Positions 35,507 through 51,720 of a stretch of DNA of 64,000 nucleotides are shown one piece after another; positions within the stretch are counted from its first letter, which is position 1, and the number at the start of each line of letters is the position of its first letter. The translations under genes and the position numbers were made by a program. Source of the stretch: Paenibacillus riograndensis SBR5 (GTDB lineage: Bacteria > Bacillota > Bacilli > Paenibacillales > Paenibacillaceae); assembly GCF_000981585.1 (NCBI RefSeq), contig NZ_LN831776.1, forward strand, positions 4,075,187 to 4,139,186, in the 5' to 3' direction. The notes under the pieces are model-generated. The model searched no databases and was not told the origin of the DNA. It worked only from the letters and a program-made list of their open reading frames with translations.

Positions 35507-35646
35507 TGTCGGTGGACAAGAACATAGTCCCATTAGAACCCGCGCCAGGCGCGGGTTTTCTTTTTTATGGGATCAAGTTCTTGTCCTTTGCTCAGGACAA
35601 GAACTTGATCCCATTGCCGATAATGGACAAAAACATGGTACCAATA
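35507..35646 (+). repeat. Transposon-end module A
   Basis: Order from the left: terminal TGTCGGTGGACAAGAACATA (35507 on), the terminator-like hairpin AACCCGC/GCGGGTT with TTTTTT (35537-35566), then ATGGGATCAAGTTCTTGTCC (35567-35586) and its perfect inverted copy (35595-35614) around an 8-base loop, then TTGCCGATAAT and one more site GGACAAAAACATGGTACCA. The same layout recurs at 46090 and 51589. Four copies of one ~20-bp site in mixed orientation fit the end of a TnsB- or IstA-type transposon. Confidence 0.6.
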
Positions 35647-36248
35647 CATGTTTCAAAAGAAAAGCAAATCCTTGGCTTGTAGGAGCTCTCCAAGATACGG
35701 TCAGTTCGGCGGTGGAGCTGATCCTTACCTGCCAGTGGGCTCCCTGCGGCTCAAATGAGTGAAGGTATTTCAGGTGCAAACGACAGGAGATCCGTCCGGC
35801 GCAGTCAGGCTAACCATCTTAAAGCGCGCCGACTGAGCGCTGGCAGGCGGATTCGGAAGAACTCCTACAGCAGATAATCCGTAGATCAATCGACCGGCGC
35901 TGCGGAGATCGGTACTCTTGGGGCTGGGCCCGCAAACCAGAAGCCTGGCAATTCACCCTCCAGCTCTGCAGGCAGCCGGCCCGGAAGGACGCCTACAGCT
36001 GTTGCTATGCTGATTGATTAACCAGGGCCGTGGGGATGCGTCCGGCGCAGCCATGCTAACCACCCTCAATATAGGGTCAAGTTCTTGTACTTGGGGGATT
36101 GTATAGAATCGGTATGCCATACGACGTACTTGGGTGAATCTGTTCCTGCAACGATATATCCAAGAATTTATCTGTACAGCCGATTGGAGGATGCTAAAGG
36201 TGCAGGATAAGCATGCATCGACATGAATGTCACAGATCAAGAAAGCAG
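35647..36248. other. 600-base stretch with a diverged 32-bp repeat and one transposon-end site
   Basis: No supported gene. GATCCGTCCGGCGCAGTCAG (35789 on) and GATGCGTCCGGCGCAGCCAT (36035 on) begin 32-bp repeats that differ at five positions and share GCTAACCA. Around them, CTCCTACAGCAG and GCCTACAGCTG mark a second diverged pair. ATAGGGTCAAGTTCTTGTAC (36069-36088) is a solitary transposon-end-like site directly after the second repeat. The long minus-strand frame here is not a gene. Confidence 0.45.
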
Positions 36249-36281
36249 AAAGGAGATCGGATAAAAGCGCCGATCTCCTTT
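36249..36281 (-). terminator. Terminator downstream of the TetR gene
   Basis: AAAGGAGATCGG and CCGATCTCCTTT pair perfectly over 12 bp around a 9-base loop, with A-rich flank on the left that reads as a T-run for leftward transcription. It lies about 70 bp after the stop of the TetR gene. Confidence 0.75.
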
Positions 36282-36353
36282 CCTTATTTATAAGCTTACC
36301 CAGTATGTTTATTCCCAATAGGGAGTGTCTGCCAATCGGATGCAGCAGCGCGA

Positions 36354-36899
36354 TTAAAAATTCCGATCTAACAATATTCCTGTTTGTTCTGCCATGACAC
36401 GAGGTGGTACCAGCATTCCGTTCCTGAACCACCATTCCACTGCACCCACGACCGCTGCCCCAAAAAATTGAAGAAAAACCTCTTCACTTAAACCTTGATT
36501 TTTCCCTTCGGTTACATCGACCTCGGGCTTATACTCTTGGACAACTAAATCAAGGAATCGACTGCGAAAATAAGCTGCGCTTTTCGTGTTTAGCATGGTT
36601 GTAAAGAACAAATGATTCTCCGCAAAGTATTCGAACCAGACATAATTTCCCTCTTGGAAGGTCATCTCGGATGCAGAATGGCAAAGCTCACGGAGATTGC
36701 TGATATGTTCTTCGATAAGCTTATCAAGCAAATCATACTTATCCATGTAATGGAGATAGATGGTTCCTCGATTTACATTGGCCCTGTCGGAAATATCCCG
36801 AATGGTTATATCATCAAAGCTTTTTTCAGACATCAGCTCAATAATGGCTTTCTTGATTGCTTCTTGAGATTTGAGTACCCTTCGATCCACTTTCATCAT
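36354..36899 (-). CDS. TetR/AcrR-family transcriptional regulator
   Basis: 181 aa. The HTH is VLKSQEAIKKAIIELMSEKS, then ITIRDISDRANVNRGTIYLH; a C-terminal TetR_C-like region (FFGAAVVGAVEWWFRNGML) marks the DhaS-like subgroup common in Firmicutes. The ATG at 36899 has AAGGAG 9 bp upstream; longer in-frame starts lack a site. It is divergent from the DUF2255 gene and heads the detoxification cluster, so it is the probable repressor of that whole set. Confidence 0.88.
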   Translation of the reverse strand: MMKVDRRVLKSQEAIKKAIIELMSEKSFDDITIRDISDRANVNRGTIYLHYMDKYDLLDKLIEEHISNLRELCHSASEMTFQEGNYVWFEYFAENHLFFTTMLNTKSAAYFRSRFLDLVVQEYKPEVDVTEGKNQGLSEEVFLQFFGAAVVGAVEWWFRNGMLVPPRVMAEQTGILLDRNF

Positions 36900-37017
36900 T
36901 TTTAATAGCTCCTTCGGAGATAATAGGCAATTTTGGTTGGGTTGTTGAGTAACGCACACATCGCGGAGAAGTGATTATTGCAACCATTGGGCTTCCGTTT
37001 AAAATTATAAACATGAG

Positions 37018-37033
37018 TTGATTAAACAATCAA
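37018..37033. promoter_or_regulatory. TTGATT-N4-AATCAA dyad
   Basis: A perfect 6+6 inverted repeat with AAAC centre lies midway between the divergent TetR and DUF2255 genes. It is the best candidate operator for the TetR regulator of the cluster. A looser GTTTA/TAAAC pair lies 25 bp to the left. Confidence 0.45.
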
Positions 37034-37106
37034 TGCCCATTTAGTTTGGAGTTGTCCAGAAATATTTTGGTCGAGCTTGGCACAACATTTAAAGAGGAGG
37101 CAATTC

Positions 37107-37490
37107 ATGGGTACATGGTCGAATGAAGAGCTGCGCAAGATTAGGGATGCTGATGACCTGCACATCTCACCTTTCCGTGAAGACGGCGTAACCTACGGCA
37201 CTCCGACTTGGATTTGGTCTGTTGTGGTTGAAAGTTCCATTTATGTGCGAGCCTATTACGGACAGAACTCCCGTTGGTACCAAGCAGCAGTTCGGCAGAA
37301 GGCAGGACGAATCACTGTCGCCGGCATGGCGTTTGAGGTTTCTTTTGAACCGATCGAAGGACAGATGAGCGACGTCATCGACAATGCGTACCGTACGAAA
37401 TATAAAGGCAGTCCCTATCTTGATGCGATGATCAGCACGAGAGCCCGTTCTGCGACCGTCAAGGTTTTACCTCGAATGACCAGAACTTGA
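37107..37490 (+). CDS. DUF2255-family protein
   Basis: 127 aa. It starts MGTWSNEELRKIRDADDLHI and has the family's PTWIWSVVVESSIYVRAYYG and NSRWYQAAVRQKAGRI. DUF2255 proteins are small beta-rich proteins with a possible nitroreductase-like or nucleotide-binding fold; the function is not known, but they recur next to reductases. ATG 37107 follows AAAGAGGAGGCAATTC. It is the first gene of the rightward cluster. Confidence 0.85.
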   Translation: MGTWSNEELRKIRDADDLHISPFREDGVTYGTPTWIWSVVVESSIYVRAYYGQNSRWYQAAVRQKAGRITVAGMAFEVSFEPIEGQMSDVIDNAYRTKYKGSPYLDAMISTRARSATVKVLPRMTRT

Positions 37491-37546
37491 TTGACACAAT
37501 TCAATTTCTCGTTTGATCCTTAATGAGGCAAAGGGAGGAACAAAAA

Positions 37547-38521
37547 ATGGATTATACGAAACTTGGGAATACTGGCTTGGATGTATCCCGGATTTGTCTG
37601 GGTTGCATGGGCTTTGGCGACCCAGACAAAGGTCATCATCGTTGGGTGCTCGATGAGAAAAGTGCTCGCCCGATCATTCAAAAAGCGTTGGATATCGGAA
37701 TCAATTTTTTCGATACCGCAAACGTTTATGCCGAAGGCACAAGCGAGGAAATTGTCGGAAATGTCCTGAAGGAGCTTGCTGACAGGGACGAAATCGTCAT
37801 TGCGACGAAGATCCATGGTCGCATGCATCAAGGACCCAACGGTGCCGGACTTTCCCGCAAAGCGATAATGAGCGAAATCGACAAGAGCCTGAAGAGGTTG
37901 AAAACCGACTACGTCGATTTGTACCAAATTCATCGTTGGGATTACAACACGCCCATCGAAGAGACGATAGAGGCGCTGCACGACGTGGTCAAGGCTGGCA
38001 AAGCGCGATATATCGGCGCATCGGCCATGTGGGCATGGCAGTTCCAGAAGGCGTTGCATGCAGCCGAGAAAAACGGGTGGACCCGATTCGTATCGATGCA
38101 GAATCATTTGAACCTTATTTACCGCGAAGAGGAACGGGAGATGCTGCCGCTTTGCAAAGAAGAAAAGATCGGCGTCATTCCTTACAGCCCGCTCGCAGGA
38201 GGTAGGTTGGCGCGGGAGGCATCCACGCCTCGTGCCGAAACCGATGAGATCGCCAAACAGAAATACGATGCCGCAGTAGACTTGGATCAAGCGGTGGTCG
38301 ACCGGGTTGTGAATCTTGCGGAGAAACATGGCGTCCGCCGCGTTCACATCGCACTTGCGTGGCTGCTGCATAAAGAACCAGTGACCGCCCCCATTGTTGG
38401 CGCAACGAAGATCACCCAACTCGAGGACGCGGAAGCTGCTCTTTCCCTTAAATTAACTCAGGAAGAAATTTCGTTTTTGGAAGAACCGTATGTTCCTCAC
38501 CGAGTCGTTGGGCATTTTTAA
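37547..38521 (+). CDS. Aldo/keto reductase
   Basis: 324 aa. Family features: MDYTKLGNTGLDVSRICLG start, NFFDTANVYAEGTSEEIVG (catalytic Asp and Tyr), IVIATKIHG (Lys), and DYVDLYQIHRWDYNTPIEET (His). The C-terminal TAPIVGATKITQLEDA is the NADPH-binding end. This is the YajO/YghZ-like branch that reduces aldehydes or ketones. It lies 56 bp after DUF2255 and uses GGAGGAACAAAAA. Confidence 0.92.
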   Translation: MDYTKLGNTGLDVSRICLGCMGFGDPDKGHHRWVLDEKSARPIIQKALDIGINFFDTANVYAEGTSEEIVGNVLKELADRDEIVIATKIHGRMHQGPNGAGLSRKAIMSEIDKSLKRLKTDYVDLYQIHRWDYNTPIEETIEALHDVVKAGKARYIGASAMWAWQFQKALHAAEKNGWTRFVSMQNHLNLIYREEEREMLPLCKEEKIGVIPYSPLAGGRLAREASTPRAETDEIAKQKYDAAVDLDQAVVDRVVNLAEKHGVRRVHIALAWLLHKEPVTAPIVGATKITQLEDAEAALSLKLTQEEISFLEEPYVPHRVVGHF

Positions 38522-38541
38522 GTCAAGAAAGGAGCACCAAT

Positions 38542-38726
38542 ATGCCTGTGATCACCATTGAAGCAGCTAAATTGACGATGGAACAAAAAGAAGTTTAGCA
38601 AATGAACTTACCGCGTCAGCTTCTAAAATCATGAATGTATCGGAACAAGCCTTTTATGTGTTCATTAAAGAAAATGAAGCAGAAAATATTGGCGTTGCAG
38701 GTCAGCTAATAGCTGACAGAGGATAA
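38542..38726 (+). pseudogene. Tautomerase (4-oxalocrotonate type), one-base frameshift
   Basis: It starts MPVITIEAAKLTMEQK with the N-terminal catalytic Pro, then meets TAG. Reading one base over gives ANELTASASKIMNVSEQAFY and VFIKENEAENIGVAGQLIAD to TAA. The total length of 185 bases is one short of a whole number of codons, so a single base was lost near the GAACAAAAAGAAG run. Intact members are about 62-75 aa trimers or hexamers. Confidence 0.8.
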
Positions 38727-38781
38727 CACACTTCACTGAGAAGTGAGGAGTCATACTTGCATACAACAAGGAGAGCACACA

Positions 38782-39330
38782 ATGAAAACACTTGTACTTG
38801 TTTTTCACCCTGATCTAATTGCTTCCCGTGTAAATCGACGCTTGACGGATGAAATGGAGAAGCAGGATGGCGTTACCGTTCATCGTGTCTATGAAGTTTA
38901 CCCCGATGAGAAAATCGATGTGTCGGCTGAGCATAGACTTTTGGAGCAACATGATCGCATCGTTTTACAATTCCCTTTCTATTGGTACAGTACACCTTCA
39001 TTGTTAAAAAAGTGGGAAGATGCAGTGCTCACCTACGGATGGGCATATGGAAGCAAGGGAAACAAGTTACACGGCAAAGAACTGCTAATAGCCGTTTCTA
39101 CCGGTGCAGCACAAGAAAACTATCGTCCAGATGGTAACTTTAAGTACACCGTTCCAGAATTGCTGCGACCATTTCAGGCAACCAGCAATTTGATTGGAAC
39201 CCGCTATTTGGAGCCGTTTATCGTGTACGGAGTTATGCAGCACCTGTCTGACGAGGAGCTAGAGCAAAGTGCCAAAGAATACGTGGCGTACGCATTGAAT
39301 CCTGAACTTGCACTGCTTGCCGCACGGTAA
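38782..39330 (+). CDS. Flavodoxin-fold NAD(P)H-dependent quinone reductase (KefF/MdaB-like)
   Basis: 182 aa. The flavodoxin-like beta-1/loop TLVLVFHPDLIASRVNRRL, the FMN-side RIVLQFPFYWYSTPSLLKKW and WAYGSKGNKLHGKEL match the KefF/YwrO group, which reduce quinones and electrophiles with two electrons. ATG 38782 follows AAGGAGAGCACACA. It sits inside the detoxification cluster. Confidence 0.88.
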   Translation: MKTLVLVFHPDLIASRVNRRLTDEMEKQDGVTVHRVYEVYPDEKIDVSAEHRLLEQHDRIVLQFPFYWYSTPSLLKKWEDAVLTYGWAYGSKGNKLHGKELLIAVSTGAAQENYRPDGNFKYTVPELLRPFQATSNLIGTRYLEPFIVYGVMQHLSDEELEQSAKEYVAYALNPELALLAAR

Positions 39331-39353
39331 GAAATCATTCTTTTTCGAAAGGG

Positions 39354-40319
39354 ATGAAAACAGTTCGATTACAAAATGAAACCATTCCTTCGATTGCTTT
39401 GGGCACGTGGTCGTGGGGTACTGGAGGAGGAGCAGGCGGGGATGCCGTTTTCGGGAACTACTTGACGGCATCCGACTTAAAGCCTGTATTCGACAAGGCG
39501 ATGGAGGCTGGATTCAATTTATGGGATACAGCGGCAGTATATGGCATTGGCGCCTCGGAAACGATTCTAGGCAACTTTACCAAAGGTCGTAAAGATGTGC
39601 TCATCTCCACGAAATTCACTCCACAAATCGCCGGGGACAGCGAGAACGCTGTCGAGGAACTTCTGGATGGAAGCTTAAAACGGCTTGGCGTGGACCATGC
39701 AGATATTTATTGGATACACAACCCGGCAGATGTGCAAAGATGGACGCCAAAATTGATTCCTTTGATGAAAAGCGGAAAAGTAAAATACGTAGGTGTCTCC
39801 AATCATAACCTGGAAGAAATTAAGTGGGCAGCTAGCATTTTCGCGGAAGAAGGCCTGAAAATCTCGGCTGTACAGAACCATTACAGCCTCCTGTATCGCT
39901 CATCTGAAGAAGCAGGAATTCTTGATTACTGCAAAGAAAACGGCATGATTTTCTTCTCTTACATGGTGTTGGAGCAAGGCGCTCTAACGGACAAGTACAA
40001 TGCGCAGCATCCTTTTCCCAGCGATACGAGAAGAGGTGAAGCATTCAATATAGACGTGTTCGTAAAACTGGAAGGATTAATTCAGGTAATGAGAGATATC
40101 GGCACGAAATACAATGCGACTACCGCACAAGTTGCAATAGCTTGGTCCATTGCCAAAGGAACCGTACCCATTATTGGCGTTACGAAGACGACCCACATAG
40201 AGGATGCTGTAAAAGCTTCCAAACTGAGTTTAACAGCGCAGGAGATAAGTGATCTGGAAGCAGTCGCCAAAGAGAACGGGGTCGAGATCAGGGGTTCGTG
40301 GGAAAAACCGATGCATTAA
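39354..40319 (+). CDS. Aldo/keto reductase
   Basis: 321 aa. Catalytic residues appear in NLWDTAAVYGIGASETILG (Asp, Tyr), VLISTKFTP (Lys) and YWIHNPADVQRW (His). It differs clearly from the first AKR of the cluster, so it is not a recent duplicate. The ribosome site is GAAAGGG close to the ATG. Its tail overlaps an upstream in-frame extension of the next gene, which is not used. Confidence 0.9.
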   Translation: MKTVRLQNETIPSIALGTWSWGTGGGAGGDAVFGNYLTASDLKPVFDKAMEAGFNLWDTAAVYGIGASETILGNFTKGRKDVLISTKFTPQIAGDSENAVEELLDGSLKRLGVDHADIYWIHNPADVQRWTPKLIPLMKSGKVKYVGVSNHNLEEIKWAASIFAEEGLKISAVQNHYSLLYRSSEEAGILDYCKENGMIFFSYMVLEQGALTDKYNAQHPFPSDTRRGEAFNIDVFVKLEGLIQVMRDIGTKYNATTAQVAIAWSIAKGTVPIIGVTKTTHIEDAVKASKLSLTAQEISDLEAVAKENGVEIRGSWEKPMH

Positions 40320-40366
40320 CGCAGTTCATGATCGTAGCAATAATAGTTAAGTTGGGGAGGTTTGTT

Positions 40367-41122
40367 ATGAATCGAATTGAAAAGAGCAAAGAAACGTATA
40401 AACGTCTATTTGGCGACGGAGTACCCACAGCCTATGCCACCGATCCTGACCTTCAGGAAATCCTGAGCCGCTTCATATTTGGGGAAGTTTTCGATCAAGG
40501 CAAGCTGGACGATAAACAGCGCGAGTTAATCACCCTGGTAGTGCTTGCTGCTAACCAAACCTTGCCTCAGCTCAAAGCACATGCCAACGCCGCGCTGAAC
40601 GTTGGACTTACGCCAGTGGAAATTAAAGAAGCTATTTACCAGTGCGCGCCATACCTTGGATTCCCCAAAACGCTAAACGCGGCAAACAAGGTCAATGAGG
40701 TTTTTAAAGCAAGAAATATCGAATTACCGCTGGAAAGCCAGACGCAAGTTACGGATGATACTCGTCTTGAAAAGGGACTTGCTGTTCAGACTGAGATTTT
40801 TGGCGATAACGTCGCCAAAATGCACGGCAGTGCTCCAGATAACCAAAAACACATTCAGGACTATCTTTCTGCTTTCTGTTTTGGTGACTTCTATACCCGC
40901 AACGGCCTTGATTTACAAACACGGGAATTGCTGACACTGTGCATCATAAGTGCGCTCGGTGGCGCGGAAGGGCAAGTAAAGGCCCATGTGCAGGGCAACA
41001 AAAATGTGGGCAACGATAAGGAAACCTTGATTGCTGCCATTACTCACTGTTTGCCCTATATGGGCTTTCCTAGAACGCTGAACGCCATAGCTAACATCAA
41101 TGAAGTGATTCCGGAATCATAA
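40367..41122 (+). CDS. Carboxymuconolactone decarboxylase-family protein, two CMD domains
   Basis: 251 aa with two tandem CMD domains: GKLDDKQRELITLVVLAA with CAPYLGFPKTLNA (first), and TRELLTLCIISALGGAEGQV with CLPYMGFPRTLNA (second). Neither has the CxxC pair, so AhpD-type peroxidase action is unlikely. ATG 40367 follows TTGGGGAGGTTTGTT. A decayed copy lies at 43.6-44.0 kb. Confidence 0.9.
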   Translation: MNRIEKSKETYKRLFGDGVPTAYATDPDLQEILSRFIFGEVFDQGKLDDKQRELITLVVLAANQTLPQLKAHANAALNVGLTPVEIKEAIYQCAPYLGFPKTLNAANKVNEVFKARNIELPLESQTQVTDDTRLEKGLAVQTEIFGDNVAKMHGSAPDNQKHIQDYLSAFCFGDFYTRNGLDLQTRELLTLCIISALGGAEGQVKAHVQGNKNVGNDKETLIAAITHCLPYMGFPRTLNAIANINEVIPES

Positions 41123-41210
41123 CCAAACCAGGAAACGGCAGATGTAAGTTTGCCGCTTCTGGTCGCCGCAAGACGCTTTCATTTATATTCATTGCAGGGG
41201 GATAAGAACT

Positions 41211-42260
41211 ATGATAGCTGCTAACGCACGCGCCGTATTCGGCCCGGAAGGGCCATTTAAATTGACCACGATAGAGCGCAGGGATCTTAAACCGCATGAT
41301 GTCCTTATTGAAATCAAGTACGCGGGCATTTGCCACTCGGACATTCATACGGCTCGCGGTGAATGGGGGCCAATCCAATATCCGCTCGTTCCGGGGCATG
41401 AGATCGCGGGCGTAGTCACCCAGGTTGGATCGGAAGTCACCAAATATGAAGTTGGGGGTCGAGTAGGAGTTGGCTGCATGGTTGATTCCTGCGGGGAATG
41501 CGAGAGCTGCCGAAAGGGAGAGGAGCAGTATTGCCTTAATGGGCATACGGGGACCTACGCCGCCATCGATAGGTATGGGCAATATACGCAGGGCGGTTAT
41601 TCCACTCACATCGTCGTAACGGAAGACTTCGTCGTCCGGATTCCTGACGGCATTGAGCTTGACGTTGCCGCACCGCTCTTGTGTGCCGGTATTACGACGT
41701 ACTCGCCGCTGCGCCATTGGGGAGCGGCGCCCGGCAAGAAGATAGCTGTTGTTGGACTTGGCGGGCTTGGACATATGGCCGTAAAGCTCGCTCATGCTAT
41801 GGGGGCAGAAGTAACGGTTTTATCTCAGACCTTGAAAAAGAAAGAGGACGGTTTAAAGCTTGGCGCGGACCATTATTATGCCACCAGTGATCCAGAAACT
41901 TTTAAGAAGCTGACGGGCAAGTTCGACCTCATTGTGAATACGGTAAGTGCGAAAATTGATCTGGATGCCTACCTTTCGCTGTTGGCAGTGAACGGTACAT
42001 TGGTCAACGTCGGTGCGCCGCCGGAGGCATTGCCTATACAAGTATTTTCTCTTATCGGCCATCGTCGGTCATTTGCCGGATCGGCCATCGGAGGCATTCG
42101 TGAAACGCAGGAAATGCTGGACTTCTGTGCCAAGCACCATATTACTCCCGAGATCGAGGTTATTTCCGCCAACCAAATTGATCAAGCGTGGGAACGCGTG
42201 CTGGCGTCGGATGTCCGCTATCGTTTTGTAATCGACATTAGCACGATGGAGAATGAATGA
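41211..42260 (+). CDS. Zinc-dependent alcohol dehydrogenase (YahK/CAD-like)
   Basis: 349 aa. Catalytic zinc ligands are in [16 protein letters not shown] and VPGHEIAG; the structural zinc Cys4 is [15 protein letters not shown]; the nucleotide motif is [18 protein letters not shown]. It reduces aldehydes with NADPH in this subfamily. The ribosome site is CAGGGGGATAAGAACT. It is the fifth reductase-type gene in the cluster. Confidence 0.93.
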
Positions 42261-42280
42261 CGATTCCTCCGGGAAAACAG

Positions 42281-42311
42281 GAAGGCACGCCTAAACGGTG
42301 TGCCTCTTTCG
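42281..42311 (+). terminator. Terminator after the alcohol dehydrogenase gene
   Basis: AGGCACGCC-TAAA-CGGTGTGCCT forms a stem with one G-T pair, followed by CTTTC. The short T-run suggests partial termination before the exporter gene. Confidence 0.6.
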
Positions 42312-42356
42312 TTGGAGCCGGCCGCTAGTTAGTTTTCTAAAACAAGGAGTTATGAG

Positions 42357-43559
42357 ATGAAGGCAAAAACCAACAATCATTCTCTTCTATTTGCCCTGAT
42401 GTTATCCGCTTTTTCTGCATTGGGGCCGTTCACTGTAGATATGTACCTTTCATCGCTTCCACAATTGATGAGTTATTTTGGCACGAATACATCCATGATC
42501 CAGGCAAGCTTAACGGCCAGCTTATTAGGGCTCGGGTTAGGGCAGCTTGTCACCGGCCCCATAAGCGACGTTCATGGCAGACGAAAACCATTGTTGATTT
42601 CCATGATTCTGTATTTGCTGACCTCCCTGGCTTGTGCTTTTTCGCCGAATATTGGACTTTTTATCGCTTTGCGCTTCATCCAGGGCTTTGTCGCTTCCGC
42701 GGGGCTTGTCATTTCCCGTGCGATTGTTCGTGATCGGTATAACGGCATAGAAATGACCAAATTCATGTCCCTTTTGACAATGATCAGCAATATCGCTCCG
42801 TTGATTTCCCCAACTGCCGGCAGTACGGTGACAACATTCACATCCTGGATCGGCGTGTTTATCTTTTTGGGATTTCTGGGACTTTTCCTGACGGGTGTGA
42901 CGGTATGGGGAATTAAAGAAAGCTTGCCTGCAGAAAGGCGTATCTCAAGCAACTTTAGGGAGGTGTTAAGAAATTATGACTCCTTGCTTCGGGATCGTAG
43001 TTTTATGGGCTATGCGCTTGTGAATGGCATTTTATTCTCCGGTGTGTTTGCCTATGTCGCCGGCACTCCGTTTATTTATCAAAATATGTACGGCATCTCG
43101 CCTCAACTGTTTTCCATTTTGTTTGCCTTGAACGGACTCGGGATCATATTAGGCTCGCAGTTCGTCAAACGGTTGGCTGGACGGATGGATGAGCGCCGTA
43201 TTTTTCAGATCGGATTGCAGTTAGCGTTTATCACTACTGCTGCCATCCTGATGATTGTTTTAGCTCACGGGCCATTCTTTGCTTTGTTTATTTCCGTCTT
43301 TTTATTCGCAGCCTCTATCGGTATTATTGGTCCAGTATCTTTTACGCTGGCTATGGAATCCCAAGGGCATATCGCCGGAAGCGCTGCAGCTATATTGGGC
43401 ACGTTGCAATTTGCCTTGGGAGCTGTAACTTCCCCACTAGTAGGACTCGGTGGGGATAATTCCGCAATACCTTTCGGAATTACAATTTTTATGACTAGTA
43501 TATTGGCTGTTATCGCGTTCGTGTTCCTGGTTAAAAAGCCGACATTAGCTTCGCTTTAG
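42357..43559 (+). CDS. MFS drug-resistance transporter, Bcr/CflA type
   Basis: 400 aa with about 12 transmembrane helices. Hallmarks of the Bcr/CflA branch: FTVDMYLSSLPQLMSYFGT near the N-terminus and GPISDVHGRRKPLLISM in the first cytoplasmic loop. Members export bicyclomycin, chloramphenicol or sulfonamide-like compounds. In this cluster it may export substrates or products of the reductases. The ribosome site is AAGGAGTTATGAG. Confidence 0.9.
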   Translation: MKAKTNNHSLLFALMLSAFSALGPFTVDMYLSSLPQLMSYFGTNTSMIQASLTASLLGLGLGQLVTGPISDVHGRRKPLLISMILYLLTSLACAFSPNIGLFIALRFIQGFVASAGLVISRAIVRDRYNGIEMTKFMSLLTMISNIAPLISPTAGSTVTTFTSWIGVFIFLGFLGLFLTGVTVWGIKESLPAERRISSNFREVLRNYDSLLRDRSFMGYALVNGILFSGVFAYVAGTPFIYQNMYGISPQLFSILFALNGLGIILGSQFVKRLAGRMDERRIFQIGLQLAFITTAAILMIVLAHGPFFALFISVFLFAASIGIIGPVSFTLAMESQGHIAGSAAAILGTLQFALGAVTSPLVGLGGDNSAIPFGITIFMTSILAVIAFVFLVKKPTLASL

Positions 43560-43571
43560 TGGAGGATAAAG

Positions 43572-44009: not shown

Positions 44010-44378
44010 AAATAAATCCTCAAACGTTAAGACTTCGGATTAACGACAAGCAAATCGTGGTCAGTCTGTGCGATTATCCGATAAGCAAGGACTTTCTTTC
44101 CCTGCTTCCGTTGACTGCTTCGTTCGAAGACTACGTCGGGAAGGAAAAAATCAGCTATCTACCACGAAAGCTGAATATCGATGCGGCACCCTCTGATTGC
44201 GGTCCTGTTGTCGGTGACGTGGCCTACTAAGCGCCGTGGGGGAACCTTGGCCCTCTTTTACAAAGGTACGGCTGCTGGGGGGAATGGACTTTTTATATTG
44301 GGCGAGATTGAATCTGGTAAGGAACATTTGGCCATGATGCAAGGAGACTTTACCATCGTGATGGAGAAGCAGGAATGA
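44006..44378 (+). pseudogene. Cyclophilin-like protein, stop codon and frameshift
   Basis: It reads SLCDYPISKDFLSLLPLTAS, then FEDYVGKEKISYLPRKLNID and GDVAY before TAA, where relatives have a second Tyr. Beyond it an extra G shifts the frame, after which LALFYKGTAAGGNGLFILGE continues to the end. Cyclophilin-like (PF18050-type) proteins are small cytoplasmic proteins common beside AKR and CMD genes. Both lesions make this inactive. Confidence 0.75.
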
Positions 44379-44405
44379 ACCAACCTTACATTAGGAGGCA
44401 ACACC

Positions 44406-45269
44406 ATGTTCAACGAGACGTTCGTATTATCTAACGGTGTGGAAATTCCGAAATTGGGCCTTGGCACCTGGCTGCTTGACGATTAACAGGCCGCACAGGC
44501 CGTGCGAGATGCGGTATCGATCGGCTATCGCCATATTGATACGGCTCAGGCTTATGGAAATGAGGCAGGTGTCGGCGAAGCCATCCGAATCTGTGGTATC
44601 GCCAGGGAAGAGCTTTTCATCACGACAAAGGTCGCGGCAGAATTGAAGAAGTTCGACGCCGTTACGCAGTCCATTGATGAGTCTTTAGCAAAACTGGGGC
44701 TGGAGTATATCGATCTGCTGATCATCCACAGCCCGCAGCCTTGGAAGGAGTTCCGTGGGGAGAACCGTTACTTCGAGGAAAACAAAGAAGTATGGAAAGC
44801 CATGGAGGCCGCTTATAAGGCAGGAAAAGTAAAAGCAATCGGTCTTTCCAACTTTCTTGAGGATGACGTGGAGGATATTCTTTCAAGCTGTGAGGTCAAG
44901 CCGATGGTCAATCAGATCCTGGCCCATGTGAGCAACACGCCGATGCCACTCATTGAATTCTGCCGGAAGCATGACATCCTAGTGGAGGCCTATTCACCGA
45001 TTGTACACGGTGCCATCCTTGATCATGCAGAGGTGAAGGCAATCGCGGATCAGTATGGCGTATCGGTTGCTCAGCTCTGCTTGCGATAGGGGATCCAGCT
45101 GGGGCTTGTCGTACTTTCGAAGACGGCAAATCCCGATCACATGAGAACGAATGCAACGCTTGATTTTATGATCAGCGATGCCGACATGGAGACGCTATTA
45201 AATACAGCGCACATACAGGACTATGGTGAGCACAGCTTCTTCCCGGTGTTTGGCGGGAAATTGACGTAA
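44406..45269 (+). pseudogene. Aldo/keto reductase with two in-frame stop codons
   Basis: The 287 sense and stop codons keep one frame from ATG 44406 to TAA 45267-45269 but meet TAA at 44484-44486 and TAG at 45087-45089. Between them: YRHIDTAQAYGNEAGVGEAI (Asp, Tyr), FITTKVAAE (Lys), YIDLLIIHSPQPWKEF (His). It belongs to the YtbE/YvgN-like branch. Each stop looks like a point mutation. The part from 44502 to 45089 lacks the first beta strands and the NADPH-binding end. Confidence 0.82.
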
Positions 45270-45287
45270 ATAGGAGGAGAACCCAAA

Positions 45288-45695
45288 GTGGCAAAACATG
45301 ATGAAGTTAAAAACGGCATCATTTTCCCAGTGGGGGAGAAGAATGAAGCCTTTGCGCAGTATTTTGTGGGACAAAGTTATTTGAGTACGCTGGTTGCCGA
45401 TCCAAACGTTAATGTTGGGGTCGGGAACGTGACCTTTGAACCGGGCTGCCGGAACAACTGGCATATCCATCGAAACGGGTTTCAGCTTCTAATGGTAACG
45501 GGCGGCGAAGGCTGGTACCAAGAAGAAGGTAAGCCTGCTCAGTTCTTAAAGGCCGGCGATGTTGTTGTTACGCAAGATGGGGTAAAGCACTGGCACGGTG
45601 CCTCAAAAGACAGCTGGTTTGAGCATATTGCTATTACGGCGGGAAGGCCAGAATGGCTGGAGCCTGTGTCCGACGATGAATATAACAAACTTTGA
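45288..45695 (+). CDS. Cupin-domain protein
   Basis: 135 aa. The two cupin motifs are CRNNWHIHRNGFQLLMVTGG (HxH) and FLKAGDVVVTQDGVKHWHGA (His), giving the three-His/Glu metal site. Relatives are fused to or encoded next to CMD proteins and AKRs; they may act as metal-dependent isomerases or oxygenases. The ribosome site is TAGGAGGAGAACCCAA. It is the last gene of the cluster and is intact despite its broken neighbours. Confidence 0.88.
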   Translation: MAKHDEVKNGIIFPVGEKNEAFAQYFVGQSYLSTLVADPNVNVGVGNVTFEPGCRNNWHIHRNGFQLLMVTGGEGWYQEEGKPAQFLKAGDVVVTQDGVKHWHGASKDSWFEHIAITAGRPEWLEPVSDDEYNKL

Positions 45696-45707
45696 GTGAT
45701 AAAAGCG

Positions 45708-45755: not shown

Positions 45756-45835
45756 GATTGATTTGATGATAAAGATCCATAGGATGGCTTTGCATACTCC
45801 AATCATTATTTTTGCATATTTATTGAGTGGGGACG

Positions 45836-45918
45836 AGAACTAATTCAAGCAAGTTCATGTCGCAGTGTTAATTCAAGTAAGTTCTTGTCGCGTATTCAAG
45901 TATGTTTATGTCGCTACA
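45836..45918 (-). repeat. Transposon-end array with three spaced sites
   Basis: Three same-strand copies: TTCAAGCAAGTTCATGTCGC (45844-45863), TTCAAGTAAGTTCTTGTCGC (45872-45891) and TTCAAGTATGTTTATGTCGC (45894-45913), followed by TACA. Read on the minus strand the DNA begins TGTAGCGACATAAACATACT, i.e. a 5'-TGT terminus with the terminal site and two inner sites 22 and 28 bp away. That is the form of Tn7-family ends. It belongs to a different element from modules A-C. Confidence 0.6.
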
Positions 45919-46044: not shown

Positions 46045-46087
46045 ATGTAGGTAAATTCTTGTCATTTATGTAGGAACATTTTTGTCA
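46045..46087 (-). repeat. Pair of transposon-end-like sites
   Basis: ATGTAGGTAAATTCTTGTCA (46045-46064) and ATGTAGGAACATTTTTGTCA (46068-46087), 23 bp apart start to start. They point away from module B, which begins 3 bp to the right. The spacing equals that of the array at 33635. Confidence 0.5.
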
Positions 46088-46089
46088 AC

Positions 46090-46249
46090 TGTCGGTGGAC
46101 AAGAACATAGTCCCATAAGAGCCCGCGCCCAGCGCGGGTTTTCTGTTTTATGGGACCAAGTTCTTGTCCTTTTCTCAGGACAAGAACTTGGTCCCATTGC
46201 CGATAATGGACAAGAACATGTTACTATTGCCGATTTGATGAACATCTAA
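46090..46249 (+). repeat. Transposon-end module B
   Basis: TGTCGGTGGACAAGAACATA starts at 46090; the hairpin CCCGCGC-CCA-GCGCGGG with TTTTCTG follows; then ATGGGACCAAGTTCTTGTCC (46150-46169), an 8-base loop, its perfect inverted copy (46178-46197), TTGCCGATAAT, and the site GGACAAGAACATGTTACTAT with its tail to TCTAA (46249). Compared with module A, a T-to-C change in one arm is matched by the complementary change in the other. Confidence 0.62.
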
Positions 46250-47220: not shown

Positions 47221-48063
47221 ATGAGAACAATCTTGATAACTGGCGGGACAGACGGAATAGGAAAAGGGATAGCGTTACTTTTTATCAAGAAGGGTGATCG
47301 TATAATTGCTATTGGTAGCTCAGCAGATAAAGGTAAACGTTTTTTAGATGAGTCTAAGAAATTAGGCGCTGAAGAAAGAGCTATATTTTTACAAGCAGAT
47401 CTAAGTTGTGTAAGAGAAAACCATAGGATAATTGATATAGTTAAAAATAATTTTCAATCTCTTGATATGTTAATTTTCTCAGCAACCAGTCACAAAATAT
47501 ATAAAGAATATACGACAACAACAGAGGGTTTGGAGATCAACTTTGGACTGTCTTATCTCAGCAGATTTATTCTTGGATTCGGCTTAAAAGAACGCTTGGA
47601 AAACTCAGAAAATCCCATTATTGCAAACATTTGCGCACCTGGTATGAAAGGGAGAATTGATTTAAATGACATCCAAAATAAAAATAACTACAAGGGTTCA
47701 AAAGCTCGTTATCATAATAGTCGGTTGAATGATCTGCTTGGTGTTGCCTATACAGAAGCTGATACGATCAAAAAAATTAAATACATTCTTTTCAACCCAT
47801 GGGCAGTACGAACCACAGGTATCATAGATGCAGTAGAAAACCCAGTGTATAAAATATTTACTAAGGTTATTTTTAAATTGGTTGGTAAGCCTATAAATCA
47901 GGCCATCCTCCCACTTATTGAACTATTGGAGAATCCTTCAAAGGATAATTTGACAGCGTATATTAAACGAAAAGAAGTGAATCTTGCGAGAGAGACTTTT
48001 GATAAAGGTAATGCTGATCAACTTTATAAGCAAACTATTAATTTGTTGAAGACAGTCCTATAG
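47221..48063 (+). CDS. SDR-family oxidoreductase with Lys-to-Arg change
   Basis: 280 aa. Rossmann start ILITGGTDGIGKGIALLF; an NADP-type second strand (AIGSSADKGKR); then ARYHNSRLNDLL where the catalytic YxxxK appears as Y-H-N-S-R. It may be a reductase with altered kinetics or a nucleotide-binding relative. The gene is strongly A+T-rich, like the two genes that follow. It lies upstream of an MmyB-type XRE regulator, a common pairing. Confidence 0.8.
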   Translation: MRTILITGGTDGIGKGIALLFIKKGDRIIAIGSSADKGKRFLDESKKLGAEERAIFLQADLSCVRENHRIIDIVKNNFQSLDMLIFSATSHKIYKEYTTTTEGLEINFGLSYLSRFILGFGLKERLENSENPIIANICAPGMKGRIDLNDIQNKNNYKGSKARYHNSRLNDLLGVAYTEADTIKKIKYILFNPWAVRTTGIIDAVENPVYKIFTKVIFKLVGKPINQAILPLIELLENPSKDNLTAYIKRKEVNLARETFDKGNADQLYKQTINLLKTVL

Positions 48064-48213
48064 AAATGAGATCAACCAGCGTTAAGCTCAAAGTTGAATA
48101 AAGCCTAAAAAGTTTCATTTGAAAATAAAATTACAGTTATTTATTTTCCTTTTAATCAAATAAGTTCTTTACCTTTTCCATTACAAAGAAAGATAAATTA
48201 CACTTAATGAGGT

Positions 48214-49056
48214 GTGAAAGTGCAAAATAATAAAATCAAAATACTTGGAGATTTTATAAAATCGCGGCGTGAACGAATTAAACCGGATCACATCGAAATT
48301 GCTAGTCGTTATGGTAAAAGAAGAACACCTGGATTGCGCAGAGAAGAGGTTGCTCAGCTTGCAGGTGTAAGTATCACTTACTATACCTGGTTGGAGCAAG
48401 GAAGAGTTGGTACAGTGTCAAGGGAAGTCCTTGAAAGTGTCGCCCGAGCTTTGCAATTAACTTCGGATGAGCAGTCTCATTTACTTAGATTGGCAGACTA
48501 TGGAGAAGAAAGTAATGCGAGCGCAAGTACTGGAGAAACTCATCCCGAACTTCAAACCATAATTGATCAAGTTAACTACCCTGCTTTTATAGCAAATAAT
48601 CGAACAGAGGTGCTGGCCTATAATCGGATGGCAACTGAAATTATTACCGATTTCAATGCTATTACCCCAAATGAACGCATACTGACTCGACTAACATTCA
48701 CAGAGCCAAGTTTACGAGAACAGTTAGTTAACTGGAATGAACTAGCTAATTATACGATAGGGGCGTTTCGGATATATTATGATCAAAAACCTGGTGATCC
48801 TTGGTTTGAATCCTTCGTTCAGCAAATGTGCATGGAGTCTGTGGATTTTAAGAAACTCTGGCGAATGCACAATATTCAGCAAAAGAAAGCCATCCTCTAT
48901 ACGTTTGATCATTGTGTAGTTGGAAGAATGTTTTTTCAATTAAACACTTTTTCAAAAATTAACGGAGATGAAGACCTTCACTGTTGCATATTTATTCCGA
49001 TTGAAAATAGCGGTACCGCAGAAAAATTAGTGGACTTGCAACAAGTATCCTATTAG
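48214..49056 (+). CDS. XRE-family regulator with MmyB-like ligand domain
   Basis: 280 aa. Residues about 10-70 form an XRE helix-turn-helix with the MmyB-type run YGKRRTPGLRREEVAQLAGV, followed by SITYYTWLEQGR. Residues 110-270 form the PAS-like MmyB domain (YPAFIANNRTEVLAYNRMA), which in relatives binds fatty acids. Start GTG 48214 or 48220 behind GAGGTGT. Such regulators usually control a neighbouring SDR or oxidoreductase, here the genes on either side. Confidence 0.88.
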   Translation: MKVQNNKIKILGDFIKSRRERIKPDHIEIASRYGKRRTPGLRREEVAQLAGVSITYYTWLEQGRVGTVSREVLESVARALQLTSDEQSHLLRLADYGEESNASASTGETHPELQTIIDQVNYPAFIANNRTEVLAYNRMATEIITDFNAITPNERILTRLTFTEPSLREQLVNWNELANYTIGAFRIYYDQKPGDPWFESFVQQMCMESVDFKKLWRMHNIQQKKAILYTFDHCVVGRMFFQLNTFSKINGDEDLHCCIFIPIENSGTAEKLVDLQQVSY

Positions 49057-49057
49057 T

Positions 49058-49090
49058 CAGGTTACCTGTATAACGGTCAACTGGTTACCT
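49058..49090. promoter_or_regulatory. Two GGTTACC boxes before the quinone oxidoreductase gene
   Basis: CAGGTTACCTG (49058-49068) is a perfect palindrome around a central T; a second copy CTGGTTACCT lies at 49081-49090, centres 23 bp apart. They occupy the gap between the XRE gene and the oxidoreductase gene and are the best candidates for the XRE operator. Confidence 0.5.
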
Positions 49091-49143
49091 CCTTTGATGG
49101 GAAATATAATAAGTGTATTACCAGATTAGGAGGTCAATTTAAT

Positions 49144-50133
49144 ATGAAAGCTATTGTTATCGATCAACCGGGTGGGCCAGAAAGCTTAAAATGGGTCGAA
49201 AAACCGGATTTGCAGCCGGCTCCTGGTATGCTTACTATAGATGTTGCCTATGCCGGAGTTGGGTATTATGAAGTGTTACTGAGCCGTGGCGAATTTATGT
49301 CAGTTATGCCATTTCCAATCACTCCTGGCTTAGAGGTATCAGGATATGTACGTGCCATTGGAGAAGGCGTAGAAGGATTTCACATTGGTCAGCCTGTAGC
49401 TTCTATGATGCTAAAAGATCATAACGGGTTTGCTACTATGGCGAACGTGCGCCCAGAAATGACGATTCCACTTGACCAATTAGGTGCAGAGATGGATCTT
49501 GCGACAGCAGCTGCAGCCATCGTAAATTTAACCACAGCTTACCTGACCCTTACAGAAGTTTATAAAATGAATAAAGGTGACAACGTACTTATTCATGCTG
49601 CCGTAGGTGGTTTGGGCAGTTTTCTTGGACAAGTCGCTAAACGTTTAGGAGCAGGTAAAGTGTTAGGCACTGTCGGGAACCTAGAGAAGACCAAGCTAGC
49701 TGCCTCCTTTGGATATGACGAATTGTTTATTCGGTCAGAATTTACTGAGCAAGTACTAAAGGCTGCAGGAGAAAAAGGTATTGACGCTGTTTTAGACCCG
49801 GTTGGAGGAAACGTGAGACAACAAAGTATAGATTTGCTAAATCCCTTAGGCAAATTAGTTATACTGGGAAATGCCAGCGGAGAAGAAGGTACGCCACTCT
49901 CCTTTAACCAACTTTGGTTTTCCAACAAGCAGTTTGCTGGTTTTACAATAGGTCAGTATGCAGAAGATAAACCTGTAGTGACCGGTAAAGCAGCACGAGA
50001 AGCACTAGCCATGCTGGCAAGAAAAGAGATTCATGCTGAAATTCACGAAGTGCTCCCTATGGAAAAGGCAGGAGAAGCCCTTGCACTTTTAGAGCAAAAA
50101 AACACAGTTGGAAAACTGATTTTGAAAGTATAG
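49144..50133 (+). CDS. Quinone oxidoreductase-like MDR protein
   Basis: 329 aa without zinc ligands. The GroES-like start (VIDQPGGPESLKWVEKPDLQ), TPGLEVSGYVRAIGEGVEGF and the NADPH motif HAAVGGLGSFLGQVAKRLGA place it in the zinc-independent quinone oxidoreductase branch of medium-chain reductases. The ribosome site is TTAGGAGGTCAATTTAAT. It is probably regulated by the XRE protein upstream. Confidence 0.9.
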   Translation: MKAIVIDQPGGPESLKWVEKPDLQPAPGMLTIDVAYAGVGYYEVLLSRGEFMSVMPFPITPGLEVSGYVRAIGEGVEGFHIGQPVASMMLKDHNGFATMANVRPEMTIPLDQLGAEMDLATAAAAIVNLTTAYLTLTEVYKMNKGDNVLIHAAVGGLGSFLGQVAKRLGAGKVLGTVGNLEKTKLAASFGYDELFIRSEFTEQVLKAAGEKGIDAVLDPVGGNVRQQSIDLLNPLGKLVILGNASGEEGTPLSFNQLWFSNKQFAGFTIGQYAEDKPVVTGKAAREALAMLARKEIHAEIHEVLPMEKAGEALALLEQKNTVGKLILKV

Positions 50134-50315
50134 GCTCTTATGTTTTGCGTGTATAGTTTTATGAATTATGAAAAAAATTAATCAAGGAAATTTGATCCGA
50201 ACTTTAACTTAAGTACGGATCAAATTTTTTATAAATGAAATTCCTGACCTCAAGATCTATAATATTTGATAGTAAATTTATAATCTGACTATGAGAGTCT
50301 GAAGGAGTACCGCTT

Positions 50316-50990
50316 TTGAAAACTATCGCAATTATCGGTGCTGGGCCCGGGCTAGGCTTCTCCTTAGCAAAGACGTTTGGAAAACATGGATTTCGTGTAG
50401 CTTTGGTATCCCGATCACAGGAGAAGCTCAATCACTATTCAGACCAATTAAATCAAATGGGGATTGAAGCCAGAGGGTTTTCTGCTGATATTACTAACAA
50501 AATGCAATTGGCAGCTGCCTTTCAACAAATCAAAAATACATTCGGTACAATTGATGTGGTGGAGTTTAGTCCACATAGCGGAAATGTGCCAATAACTCCT
50601 ATTCTAGAAACTACTGATGAGAGTGTTTTTCATATATTTAATAATGTAGTCATCGGGGCAATCAATACAGCAAGACAAGTTATTCCTGAAATGGTTGAAC
50701 GTGGTCATGGAGCCCTCCTGTTCACTACGGATCTGACCGCCATAAGATCAAACCCATTGTTCGGAAACACCGGAATTGCTATGTCGGCGTTACGAAACTA
50801 CATTCTTAATTTACAGGAACGTTTGTTACCTCTAGGCGTTTTTGTTGGGCATCTTTCTATCAGTCCTCTCATTAAGAAAGGTAGTAGCTTTGAACCAGAT
50901 GAGGTGGCTGAGGCGTGGTTTAATCTATACGAAAAAAGAGAACAATCAGAAGAGACTTTTCCAAAGGGTATTATGAGTTTATTAAATTAA
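50316..50990 (+). CDS. SDR-family protein of the GAGPGLG type
   Basis: 224 aa. It starts IAIIGAGPGLGFSLAKTFG and has NTGIAMSALRNYILNLQERL where classical SDRs have YxxxK; the family to which it belongs normally lacks that pair (GN-G-AMAALRNY pattern). Catalysis is therefore uncertain. TTG start behind GAAGGAGTACCGC. It lies 180 bp after the quinone oxidoreductase gene and is similarly A+T-rich. Confidence 0.82.
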   Translation: MKTIAIIGAGPGLGFSLAKTFGKHGFRVALVSRSQEKLNHYSDQLNQMGIEARGFSADITNKMQLAAAFQQIKNTFGTIDVVEFSPHSGNVPITPILETTDESVFHIFNNVVIGAINTARQVIPEMVERGHGALLFTTDLTAIRSNPLFGNTGIAMSALRNYILNLQERLLPLGVFVGHLSISPLIKKGSSFEPDEVAEAWFNLYEKREQSEETFPKGIMSLLN

Positions 50991-51049
50991 GTCTGTTCTG
51001 CAAAATGAGAGGGTAGCTTTGTCTTGTGATAAATTGCGCCTTTTTAATC

Positions 51050-51388
51050 GAATGCTTGAAGCGAATGATACGCTAAATCAGTTTTTGTTGTTTATTATGA
51101 CTCGAGAATATGAGGGATCACTCATTCCCCAATGTTGCTTTCAAATACAACTTTCATGAGAACAGCTCATCGAGCAGCATTGAGTATTTTCATTTGCAAA
51201 ACAGAGAACCGTCACTAACTAACAAATGCAATTGCCCAAATCAACATGAATCCGTTAAACAAGTTATCCAATCAATGATATCGTATACACCACAAAAAAT
51301 TGTGATCCTGAACATGAGTAATCCAAGTGACGGACATAAGATCCTCCATAAAATAGTCGAGACATACGTGAAAAAATTGAATATTTGA
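51050..51388 (+). pseudogene. Transposon-associated protein, C-terminal part
   Basis: From 51110 the frame reads MRDHSFPNVAFKYNFHENSS, then VKQVIQSMISYTPQKIVILN and GHKILHKIVETYVKKLNI. The first 15 residues repeat the end of the remnant at 25.05-25.10 kb almost exactly, so both come from the same gene family. No ribosome site precedes the ATG, and the N-terminal part is missing. A terminator and a transposon end follow at once, so this was probably the last gene inside an element. Confidence 0.45.
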
Positions 51389-51390
51389 AG

Positions 51391-51423
51391 CCGCCGTTAA
51401 TCTAAAAAGATTGACGGTTTTTT
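51391..51423 (+). terminator. Rho-independent terminator
   Basis: CCGTTAATCT-AAAA-AGATTGACGG followed by TTTTTT, with one G-T pair. It lies directly after the transposon-associated frame. Confidence 0.85.
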
Positions 51424-51469
51424 GTGTTTAATTCTAACCGGATAAATTTGAAATGAAAAGGGGAAAAAC

Positions 51470-51584
51470 GGCAATCGGTTTAAGTTCTTGTCCCAGCTGA
51501 AAGCAAATATCCAAGACATTAAAAAAACAGTCTAGACCACATGTTATAAAAACGTAAATGGCAATCGGTAAAAGTTCATGTCCC
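51470..51584 (-). repeat. Two spaced transposon-end sites
   Basis: GGCAATCGGTTTAAGTTCTT with GTCCC (51470-51494) and GGCAATCGGTAAAAGTTCAT with GTCCC (51560-51584), same strand, 90 bp apart. Reversed they read GGGACAWGAACTT. They face module C, which starts 5 bp to the right, as the pair at 46045 faces module B. Confidence 0.5.
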
Positions 51585-51588
51585 TTAA

Positions 51589-51720
51589 CGTCGGTGGACA
51601 AGAATGTGTTCCGCATAGAACCCGCATATAATTGCAAGTTCCTCTTTTTTCGGTCCATATTCTTGTCAAAAGCGGATGACAAGAATATGGACCGATCGTC
51701 GAATAGGCCAAGAATGTGTA
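51589..51720 (+). repeat. Transposon-end module C (diverged)
   Basis: CGTCGGTGGACAAGAATGTG starts at 51589; AACCCGCA follows without a good hairpin; then CGGTCCATATTCTTGTCA (51651-51668), the 8-base loop AAAGCGGA, and the perfect inverted copy TGACAAGAATATGGACCG (51677-51694); then a further site CCAAGAATGTGTACGGTT. The arms differ from modules A and B at many positions but remain perfectly complementary. Confidence 0.58.

Follow-up and report, generated by a model that had tools for sequence, protein, structure and literature searches.

The stretch of DNA analysed here, referred to as the window, is 64,000 nt long and comes from Paenibacillus riograndensis SBR5 (G000:C1:4075187-4139186; G000 is the window's own genome, a single contig of 7.9 Mb). 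It contains three related modules, each about 146 bp in length. Comparative sequence evidence supports the view that these modules come from Tn7-like transposons of Paenibacillus, of which they form the cargo-side ends and which encode TnsA, TnsB, TnsC and TniQ. The complete model is very probable: the elements have Tn7-like ends, would have inserted in layers on one side of a dif-like site, and carry inverted arms that would have been matched by template switching.

The 15-base terminus GTCGGTGGACAAGAA is present without mismatch at window positions 35508, 46091 and 51590, always on the + strand. The order of parts is the same in all three modules: first the terminal site L1, then a hairpin, the two inverted sites L2 and L3, and a fourth site (L4). 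Modules 1 and 2 start with 5'-TGT; in module 3 a C replaces the first T (CGT). In modules 1 and 2 the hairpin is a clean terminator that includes a T run; in module 3 it is degraded. The inverted arms match across 20, 20 and 18 bp and are separated by spacers of 8, 8 and 10 bases in modules 1, 2 and 3, respectively. Single-strand folding of the three modules compared with shuffled sequences gives z values of -12.8, -10.9 and -8.5. The initial annotation of the window had described three modules of one order with at least one extra site and a terminator in two of them, all of which is seen in the sequence; its two sites of about 20 bp with an 8-base gap describe modules 1 and 2 correctly, and module 3 departs from this. 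The modules and their parts, as found from the sequence, are as follows.

35507..35652, + strand: module 1, four-site cargo-side end (sequence, terminus search, module scan, folding); L1 35514-35533, terminator hairpin 35537-35566, L2 35567-35586, L3 35595-35614, L4 35625-35644
46090..46235, + strand: module 2, four-site end and border of a 29-kb element (sequence, folding, 5-bp duplication); L1 46097-46116, terminator ~46121-46149, L2 46150-46169, L3 46178-46197, L4 46208-46227
51589..51734, + strand: module 3, diverged copy of the four-site end whose terminator is degraded, inside the 29-kb element (sequence, module scan, folding); arms 51650-51667 and 51678-51695, L4 51706-51725

The same-genus set consists of 100 Paenibacillus genomes with the own genome counted in. 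Module matches at E<=0.01 are present in 90 of them (own included), many of these being partial. Within the own genome, matches at E<0.01 are located at 4.10-4.17 Mb, plus one place at 3.76 Mb. A scan of the collected DNA for two inverted GGACAAGAAC-type cores and a third site at the right distance gives 133 matches, 109 of them distinct; 94 have an L1-L2 distance of 62-64 and an L2-L3 distance of 18, and 84 of these have L4. The spacing is 63/18/30 or 63/18/29 in 66 of the 109 distinct modules. A few of the scan matches outside the 94 are false registers where two ends adjoin each other. This four-site layout is not by chance. The opposite end has two direct sites (R1 and R2) and finishes in ..CCGACA or a similar sequence; R1 and R2 are 23 bp apart in 24 of 25 such ends when spacings of 22 to 24 are allowed. 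PMC11406308 uses 'right end' for the end that lies upstream of the tns genes. In the present elements these genes point towards the two-site end, and the terms left and right are therefore replaced by four-site (cargo-side) and two-site (tniQ-side) end.

In relatives, tnsA, tnsB, tnsC and tniQ are found in this order between such ends, and run towards the two-site end. TnsA of a relative matches PF08722 (56.5 bits vs a cut-off of 26.5), TnsC matches TniB and AAA_22 of Pfam above the cut-offs, and TniQ matches PF06527 of Pfam. The TnsB proteins of relatives have no Pfam or NCBIfam match; one matches TnsB of ShCAST (7svw, E=2.4e-5), and residues D232, D337 and E374, which we take to be the DDE triad, are invariant in four TnsB proteins. 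A phmmer comparison with solved structures found nothing for TnsA, TnsC and TniQ. TnsB relatives (E<=1e-20) are present in 11 of the 100 genus genomes. The initial annotation had regarded the modules as transposon ends, with TnsB (Tn7) or IstA (IS21) as models, and had suggested a search for copies that flank tnsABC or istAB genes. The core genes between such ends, the 5-bp duplications and the fixed target in relatives bear out both the transposon ends and the Tn7-like half of this assignment. IS21 is rejected because TnsA and TniQ are present, where only IstA and IstB are expected. Three NCBIfam toxin-profile matches to TnsA were also encountered and are put down to chance (15-17 bits vs cut-offs of 600-736).

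A search for target duplications, also suggested by the initial annotation, shows a perfect 5-bp duplication in five of the seven elements closest to the dif-like site described below. The duplicated sequences are TCAAC (own genome), CTAGA (G087), ACAAA (G093), GCCGA (G095) and GCGTG (G074). TCAAC at 46085-46089, directly before module 2, is identical to the five bases after a two-site end at genome position 4150269 (75083 in the window frame), 11 kb beyond the window. The shared TCAAC indicates that module 2 and this end are the two ends of one 29-kb element, and that module 3 lies inside it. A TniQ profile match lies outside the window at 4148922-4150164. Remnants of transposon genes and of tniQ-side ends are found within the window as follows.

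23903..24424, + strand: C-terminal half of TnsC, interrupted by a stop (profile E=5.9e-43 and 1.6e-22; 63% identity, E=8e-69)
24428..25149, + strand: broken TniQ gene after the TnsC remnant, in three pieces (profile E=7.6e-22, 3.8e-9 and 1.3e-8)
45830..45915, - strand: three direct sites of GCGACAWRAAC type that probably form the tniQ-side end of another family (by eye)
46047..46089, - strand: tniQ-side end remnant of an older element directly before module 2, with two sites spaced by ~23 bp (by eye)
51101..51385, + strand: C-terminal remnant of TniQ (profile of TniQ from 52 loci, E=2e-11, positions 444-517 of 517)
51472..51583, - strand: tniQ-side end remnant directly before module 3; one site at ~51472-51495, the other at ~51560-51583, with a spacing of ~90 vs the usual 23

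At module 3 the TniQ tail (51101-51385) is followed by the end remnant and then by module 3. As read from the sequence, a TniQ tail, a two-site end and the next four-site end is the order expected of an array. A TnsB-like match of 45 residues at window positions 60702-60836 (E=0.003) is taken as chance, and the TnsB profile gave no confirmation of it.

Circular chromosomes need dif for dimer resolution. The dif-proximal elements are followed, past their two-site end, by a conserved near-palindrome, ACATATGTACAAAA-TACGGG-TTTTGTG.., which is diverged in G074. It is found with at most 3 mismatches in 95 of the 100 genomes and is single copy in 90; the reversed control pattern has no match in any of the 100. 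GC skew in the own genome is positive up to the 10-kb step containing the site and turns negative there (0.103, -0.004, -0.074), with one later step positive, and skew is positive below and negative above the site in nine of ten other genomes. Among 34 genomes that are a single contig, 23 have the site at 0.44-0.57 of its length; G028 and G082 have it close to the contig start and still show the skew change. The gene beside the own site encodes XerS (NCBIfam, 385.7 bits vs a cut-off of 267). In 22 of the 100 genomes a close xerS copy (69-100% identity) is found no more than 400 bp from the site, and most genomes have a more distant relative (~45%) elsewhere. A near-palindrome that is mostly single copy, at the GC-skew shift and linked to a xer gene can be described as a dif-like site. 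The analysed 304 kb of the own genome contain no copy of the B. subtilis-type dif consensus; the best match has 7 mismatches of 28.

The distance from the two-site end to the dif-like site is 31-56 bp in 30 measured ends (elements G029 and G095 being counted twice), and 22 of the 30 are at 40-47 bp; it is 47 bp in the own genome. A second, wider sample, the named collection, has 76 tnsB loci. The dif-like site is on the same strand beyond the tns genes in 26 of these, two of which are from Cohnella. A different way to place elements here would be by a Xer-type recombinase, i.e., integration at dif as by IMEX and not TniQ-guided transposition. The proximity of XerS to the site in 22 of 100 genomes would fit this, as would the presence of a tyrosine recombinase gene in some elements. 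However, the insertions are 31-56 bp outside the site and have 5-bp duplications that vary from element to element, unlike a crossover within the site; moreover, with two element recombinases as queries, 68 of the 76 tnsB loci are without a match. Xer-mediated placement is thus very improbable.

Orientation and position of the modules are also tied to the site. Among the best 150 module matches listed across the genus, 108 in 42 genomes are on contigs with the site and can be tested, the position in G074 having been added and the second, weaker sites of five genomes left out. Orientation and side agree with the site in 101 of these 108, and 97 of the 101 are within 250 kb. Because dif survives an insertion, another element can insert behind it. 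A junction in G093 displays such layers: an end, ACAAA and the next end, where the newest element has ACAAA on both flanks. Repeated layered insertion at the dif-like site would account for the series of modules in the window that all point the same way. Alternatively, the modules could be ordinary intergenic repeats that cluster in one direction due to strand or terminus bias, and it is true that the copies in the window have no intact transposase genes between them. But the 5-bp duplications pair two different ends, the distance to one site is narrow, the modules are one-sided, and core genes are found between such ends in relatives. This explanation is refuted for the family and is extremely improbable overall.

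Several observations weigh against transposition by Tn7-like elements into one side of a dif-like site. The own genome has no tnsB match, and in its 304 kb the TnsA and TnsB profiles are silent, with only TnsC and TniQ remnants found (a Mu-transpos_C family search of the own genome was also silent, as were its controls). The partner of the own element is one of three candidate modules and was selected for its matching flank, for which the chance is ~3 in 1024. G029 has no target duplication with the nearest cargo-side end, and no partner end was found for the G090 element. Two or three dif-like sites, the extra ones weaker, are present in G010, G014, G034, G052 and G092, and no site within 3 mismatches is found in G044, G073, G074, G079 and G098. 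G093 has no sign change in the sampled stretches, although its skew falls from 0.077 to 0.007. That the palindrome is a functional dif is something we infer. The terminus has 6-7 mismatches of 17 in five of the 30 measured ends, and its position is uncertain there. In the wider sample, 50 of the 76 tnsB loci have no same-strand site in the stretch read, and two have it on the other strand. Seven of the 108 tested modules among the best 150 are discordant (three in G014, one each in G058, G068, G017 and G047), 42 of the 150 are on contigs counted as lacking a site, and the omitted 3-mismatch second site on G092:C13 would make an eighth exception. The three G014 modules (G014:C82:67693-85358) are opposite to the dif-like site in both side and orientation, which is perhaps the result of an inversion.

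The inverted pair of the four-site end is strongly covariant. The two arms of a module differ at 1.27 of 20 positions vs 3.39 between modules, a value reached by 0 of 2000 permutations (94 modules). Arms are perfect over 20 nt in 31 of the 94 modules and have one mismatch in another 31; the perfect complementarity claimed for each pair by the initial annotation therefore holds for the three modules of the window and not for the family. Over the outer 7 arm positions, 0.13 differ within a module vs 1.69 between modules (84 modules). The alignment that was suggested as a check of covariation gives, for 53 modules left after thinning at 93% identity, a score for the two stems of 0.320 vs 0.108 when shuffled (0 of 500 shuffles reach it, and shuffling keeps the relatedness among modules in place); slid controls are at most 0.073. 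In this set the arm cells are paired in 96.1% of cases, and changes on both sides are seen at 10 of the 18 arm pairs, e.g., one pair is U-A in 27 and A-U in 23, and another is A-U in 27, C-G in 13 and U-A in 10. Parsimony places 35 of 86 L3 changes as mirrored in L2, compared with 10 in L1 and 6 in L4; this is only supporting, as the tree is built from ~90 nt that include L1 and L4. When single arm mismatches were examined for G-U wobble, those in the interior are CT (11) and AG (7) vs GA (4) and TC (4), and are mostly in one column.

Covariation of this type is what an RNA stem displays, and the inverted pair could represent an RNA hairpin, an attenuator or a small RNA, under selection for pairing. 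The neighbouring terminator hairpin does covary as RNA: 85.3% of its cells are paired, three of seven pairs are two-sided, and there are 31 one-sided and 54 two-sided cells. The arm stem is different in that outside pair 66-109 it has 4 one-sided vs 79 two-sided cells (pair 66-109 alone has 7 one-sided). One-sided cells that are common in the terminator stem and rare in the arm stem point away from RNA for the arms. In addition, the arm stem lies downstream of the terminator, and the window has no Rfam match at the gathering score. An RNA hairpin is quite improbable.

The loop between the arms provides the evidence taken as decisive. In the 94 modules it is like TTTGCTCG in 44, like the reverse complement of this sequence in 28, and like neither in 22. 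Letter shuffling gives 0.8 inverted loops on average and a maximum of 5 in 2000 rounds, compared with the 28 of 94 observed; the reverse and the plain complement of the loop occur in no module. Five exact reverse-complement pairs are present among 42 distinct loops, and parsimony gives six loop flips (63 of 84 tips used). Homogenised arms together with an inverted spacer are a signature of template switching between inverted repeats, as described in the portions of PMC8604942 and PMC8794818 consulted. The matching of the arms presumably results from such switching between them, which is favoured because the loop occurs in both orientations; recombination between the arms would equally give homogenised arms and a flipped loop.

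A further explanation is that identical half-sites are needed for symmetric protein binding, by a TnsB dimer or by a regulator, and that selection alone keeps the arms matched. The direct sites R1 and R2 are in fact also alike within an element, at 1.56 vs 3.90 differences of 7 positions in 25 ends (over 17 positions, none of 5000 permutations attains the observed total), and pairing of inverted arms cannot cause this. It counts against template switching as the sole cause and implies that shared TnsB specificity contributes something. A second caution is that the modules are related and share loops, and the arm and loop counts are not independent events. L1 and L4, however, do not follow the arms (L1/L3 3.02 vs 3.41; L3/L4 2.75 vs 3.02; 84 modules), which shows that shared TnsB specificity alone is insufficient, and turnover of the loop is not predicted by symmetric binding. 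Selection alone is rather unlikely. Of the two possibilities that the initial annotation had left side by side, gene-conversion-like pairing is therefore favoured by the loop inversion and the independence of L1 and L4, and selection for symmetric binding less so. Agreement of the inner sites between the two ends of an element was considered as well and dropped, since the own, G093 and G095 elements agree in type and those of G087 and G074 do not. A palindrome can covary strongly without being an RNA structure or a symmetric protein site, and loop inversion is a simple check that others can use on covarying palindromes.

The proposed mechanism has five steps, of which the first three are backed by sequence and the last two we infer. 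A TnsD-like TniQ would direct insertion 31-56 bp to one side of the dif-like, XerS-linked terminus site, with the tniQ-side end nearest the target and 5 bp duplicated. The dif-like site would stay intact, and a new element would enter between it and the previous element; repeated rounds would leave mostly decayed ends of the same orientation on one side of dif, and the window would be a part of such an array. The cargo-side end has four TnsB-type sites, the second of which is inverted, plus a terminator that may act against transcription from outside. Template switching by a polymerase, or another form of arm pairing or conversion, may homogenise the arms and flip the loop. Finally, TnsB would bind the sites, and the four-site/two-site asymmetry may set the orientation.

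The kind of element is known, i.e., Tn7-like; the dif-like target was not found described in the literature searched, where the IS1202 family is the nearest precedent. The Paenibacillus elements have in common with Tn7 and Tn7-like elements, as far as the accessible portions of the sources describe them, the four core proteins, 5'-TGT ends with several sites of ~20 bp, a 5-bp duplication, and insertion at one site in one orientation. The attachment sites given there for Tn7-like elements are glmS, tRNA, parE and comM (PMC11406308, PMC10293859); the Paenibacillus target is instead a dif-like terminus site with tandem layers. They further differ in the inverted inner pair and terminator of the cargo-side end, in a tniQ-side end with only two recognisable sites, in a stand-alone Mu-transpos_C protein upstream of tnsA (one element checked), and in Ku in one subgroup. 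Asymmetric ends may vary in the number, orientation and spacing of sites according to the portion consulted of a preprint (PMC13370975), and an inverted site in a transposon end as such has precedent there.

The IS1202 family of Acinetobacter consists of 1.5-kb insertion sequences with a transposase only, termed 'dif site hunters' in the part of PMC10132070 available. These have a TnsB-like transposase, TGT ends with extra internal sites, a 5-bp duplication and insertion in the same orientation close to dif or pdif, all in common with the Paenibacillus elements (PMC10132070). Their target as described in that part is a XerC/D-type dif at 5 bp, whereas here it is a XerS-linked site at 31-56 bp. 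An identity with this family is rejected, as these are single-gene insertion sequences of ~1.5 kb and the Paenibacillus elements are multi-gene and tens of kb in length (29 kb in the own genome). The Tn5053/Tn402 family, known as 'res site hunters', targets the res sites of serine resolvases. It shares with the present elements a Tn7-related transposase set with TniQ and the targeting of a recombination site; it is not known to have TnsA, which is present in the Paenibacillus elements, and the Paenibacillus target is linked to a tyrosine recombinase. Identity with the Tn5053 family is rejected, the insertions being near a tyrosine-recombinase-linked palindrome and not at res sites. TnsF of Tn6022, an inactive recombinase aimed at comM, also ties a Tn7-like element to a tyrosine-recombinase fold for targeting, as described in the portion of PMC10293859 consulted, but Paenibacillus elements with no recombinase match are found at dif as well. 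Arm homogenisation and spacer inversion are shared with hairpin evolution by template switching (PMC8794818, PMC8604942), where transposase binding sites are not mentioned in the portions examined.

The literature searched, mostly open-access text, shows neither a Tn7-like element that targets dif nor one with Ku, and 'Paenibacillus' is absent from the main text, as far as it was consulted, of Benler 2021 (PMC8649781) and Faure 2023 (PMC10293859). A dif-like site would join the safe harbours of Tn7-like elements, and many genomes of a single genus have layered insertions there. This opens two questions for test: is it the DNA or a recombinase bound to it that TniQ recognises, and how does the end architecture fix orientation?

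Some of the elements encode Ku. The element-type Ku proteins form a separate clade with 73-100% identity to the G063 query, compared with mostly 37-42% for the remaining Ku copies of the genus. They are encoded ~2-3 kb from tnsB in 12 of 15 genus tnsB loci, two being fragments, and once with no tnsB match (G092:C4). In the wider sample 7 of 76 loci have such a Ku at 88-100%, mostly in the same elements, plus two weaker matches. A decayed copy at G000:C1:3208611-3208949 is away from the own dif array. The element-type Ku genes are located as follows.

G063:C135:70637-71455 and G063:C122:347846: element-type Ku
G093:C1:3099488 and 3140579: element-type Ku
G057:C1:3540024: element-type Ku
G087:C1:3719470: element-type Ku
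G029:C1:2708288: element-type Ku
G038:C248:126464: element-type Ku
G090:C1:3075167: element-type Ku
G095:C43:161253: element-type Ku

Ku possibly serves in repair of the donor site or in protection of the ends. A bolder and unlikely proposal is that a Tn7-like lineage of the Paenibacillaceae senses the XerS-dif complex and reloads the spot in layers, that Ku in some members seals the cut donor, and that the inverted TnsB pair is a DNA hairpin used when the end becomes single-stranded at the terminus. The sensing part is modelled on Tn5053-type elements, which are reported to sense resolvase-bound res.

Other genes are associated with particular elements. A 109-aa open reading frame in G093 (L107:11955-12281) is a stand-alone Mu transposase C-terminal domain (PF09299) and sits between an XRE-type regulator (identified by eye) and tnsA; similar-looking small open reading frames are upstream of tnsA in other elements (by eye). 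A gene resembling tyrosine recombinases (PF00589) is found beside tniQ at L110:15727-17306 (G057), just below the cut-off, and at L105:17857-19197 (G093), above it; both recall TnsF of Tn6022. The G087 element has two consecutive TniQ genes (G087:C1:3725215-3728315), which recalls Tn7-like elements with two targeting pathways.

Between the modules of the window, at 36354-45695 and 47221-50990, are genes that appear by eye to encode oxidoreductases, transporters and regulators, among them aldo-keto reductases, an alcohol dehydrogenase, an MFS exporter and short-chain dehydrogenases. These are likely transposon cargo. An IS630-like transposase gene in two pieces is seen by eye at 58525-59593 on the - strand and is apparently unrelated to the modules.

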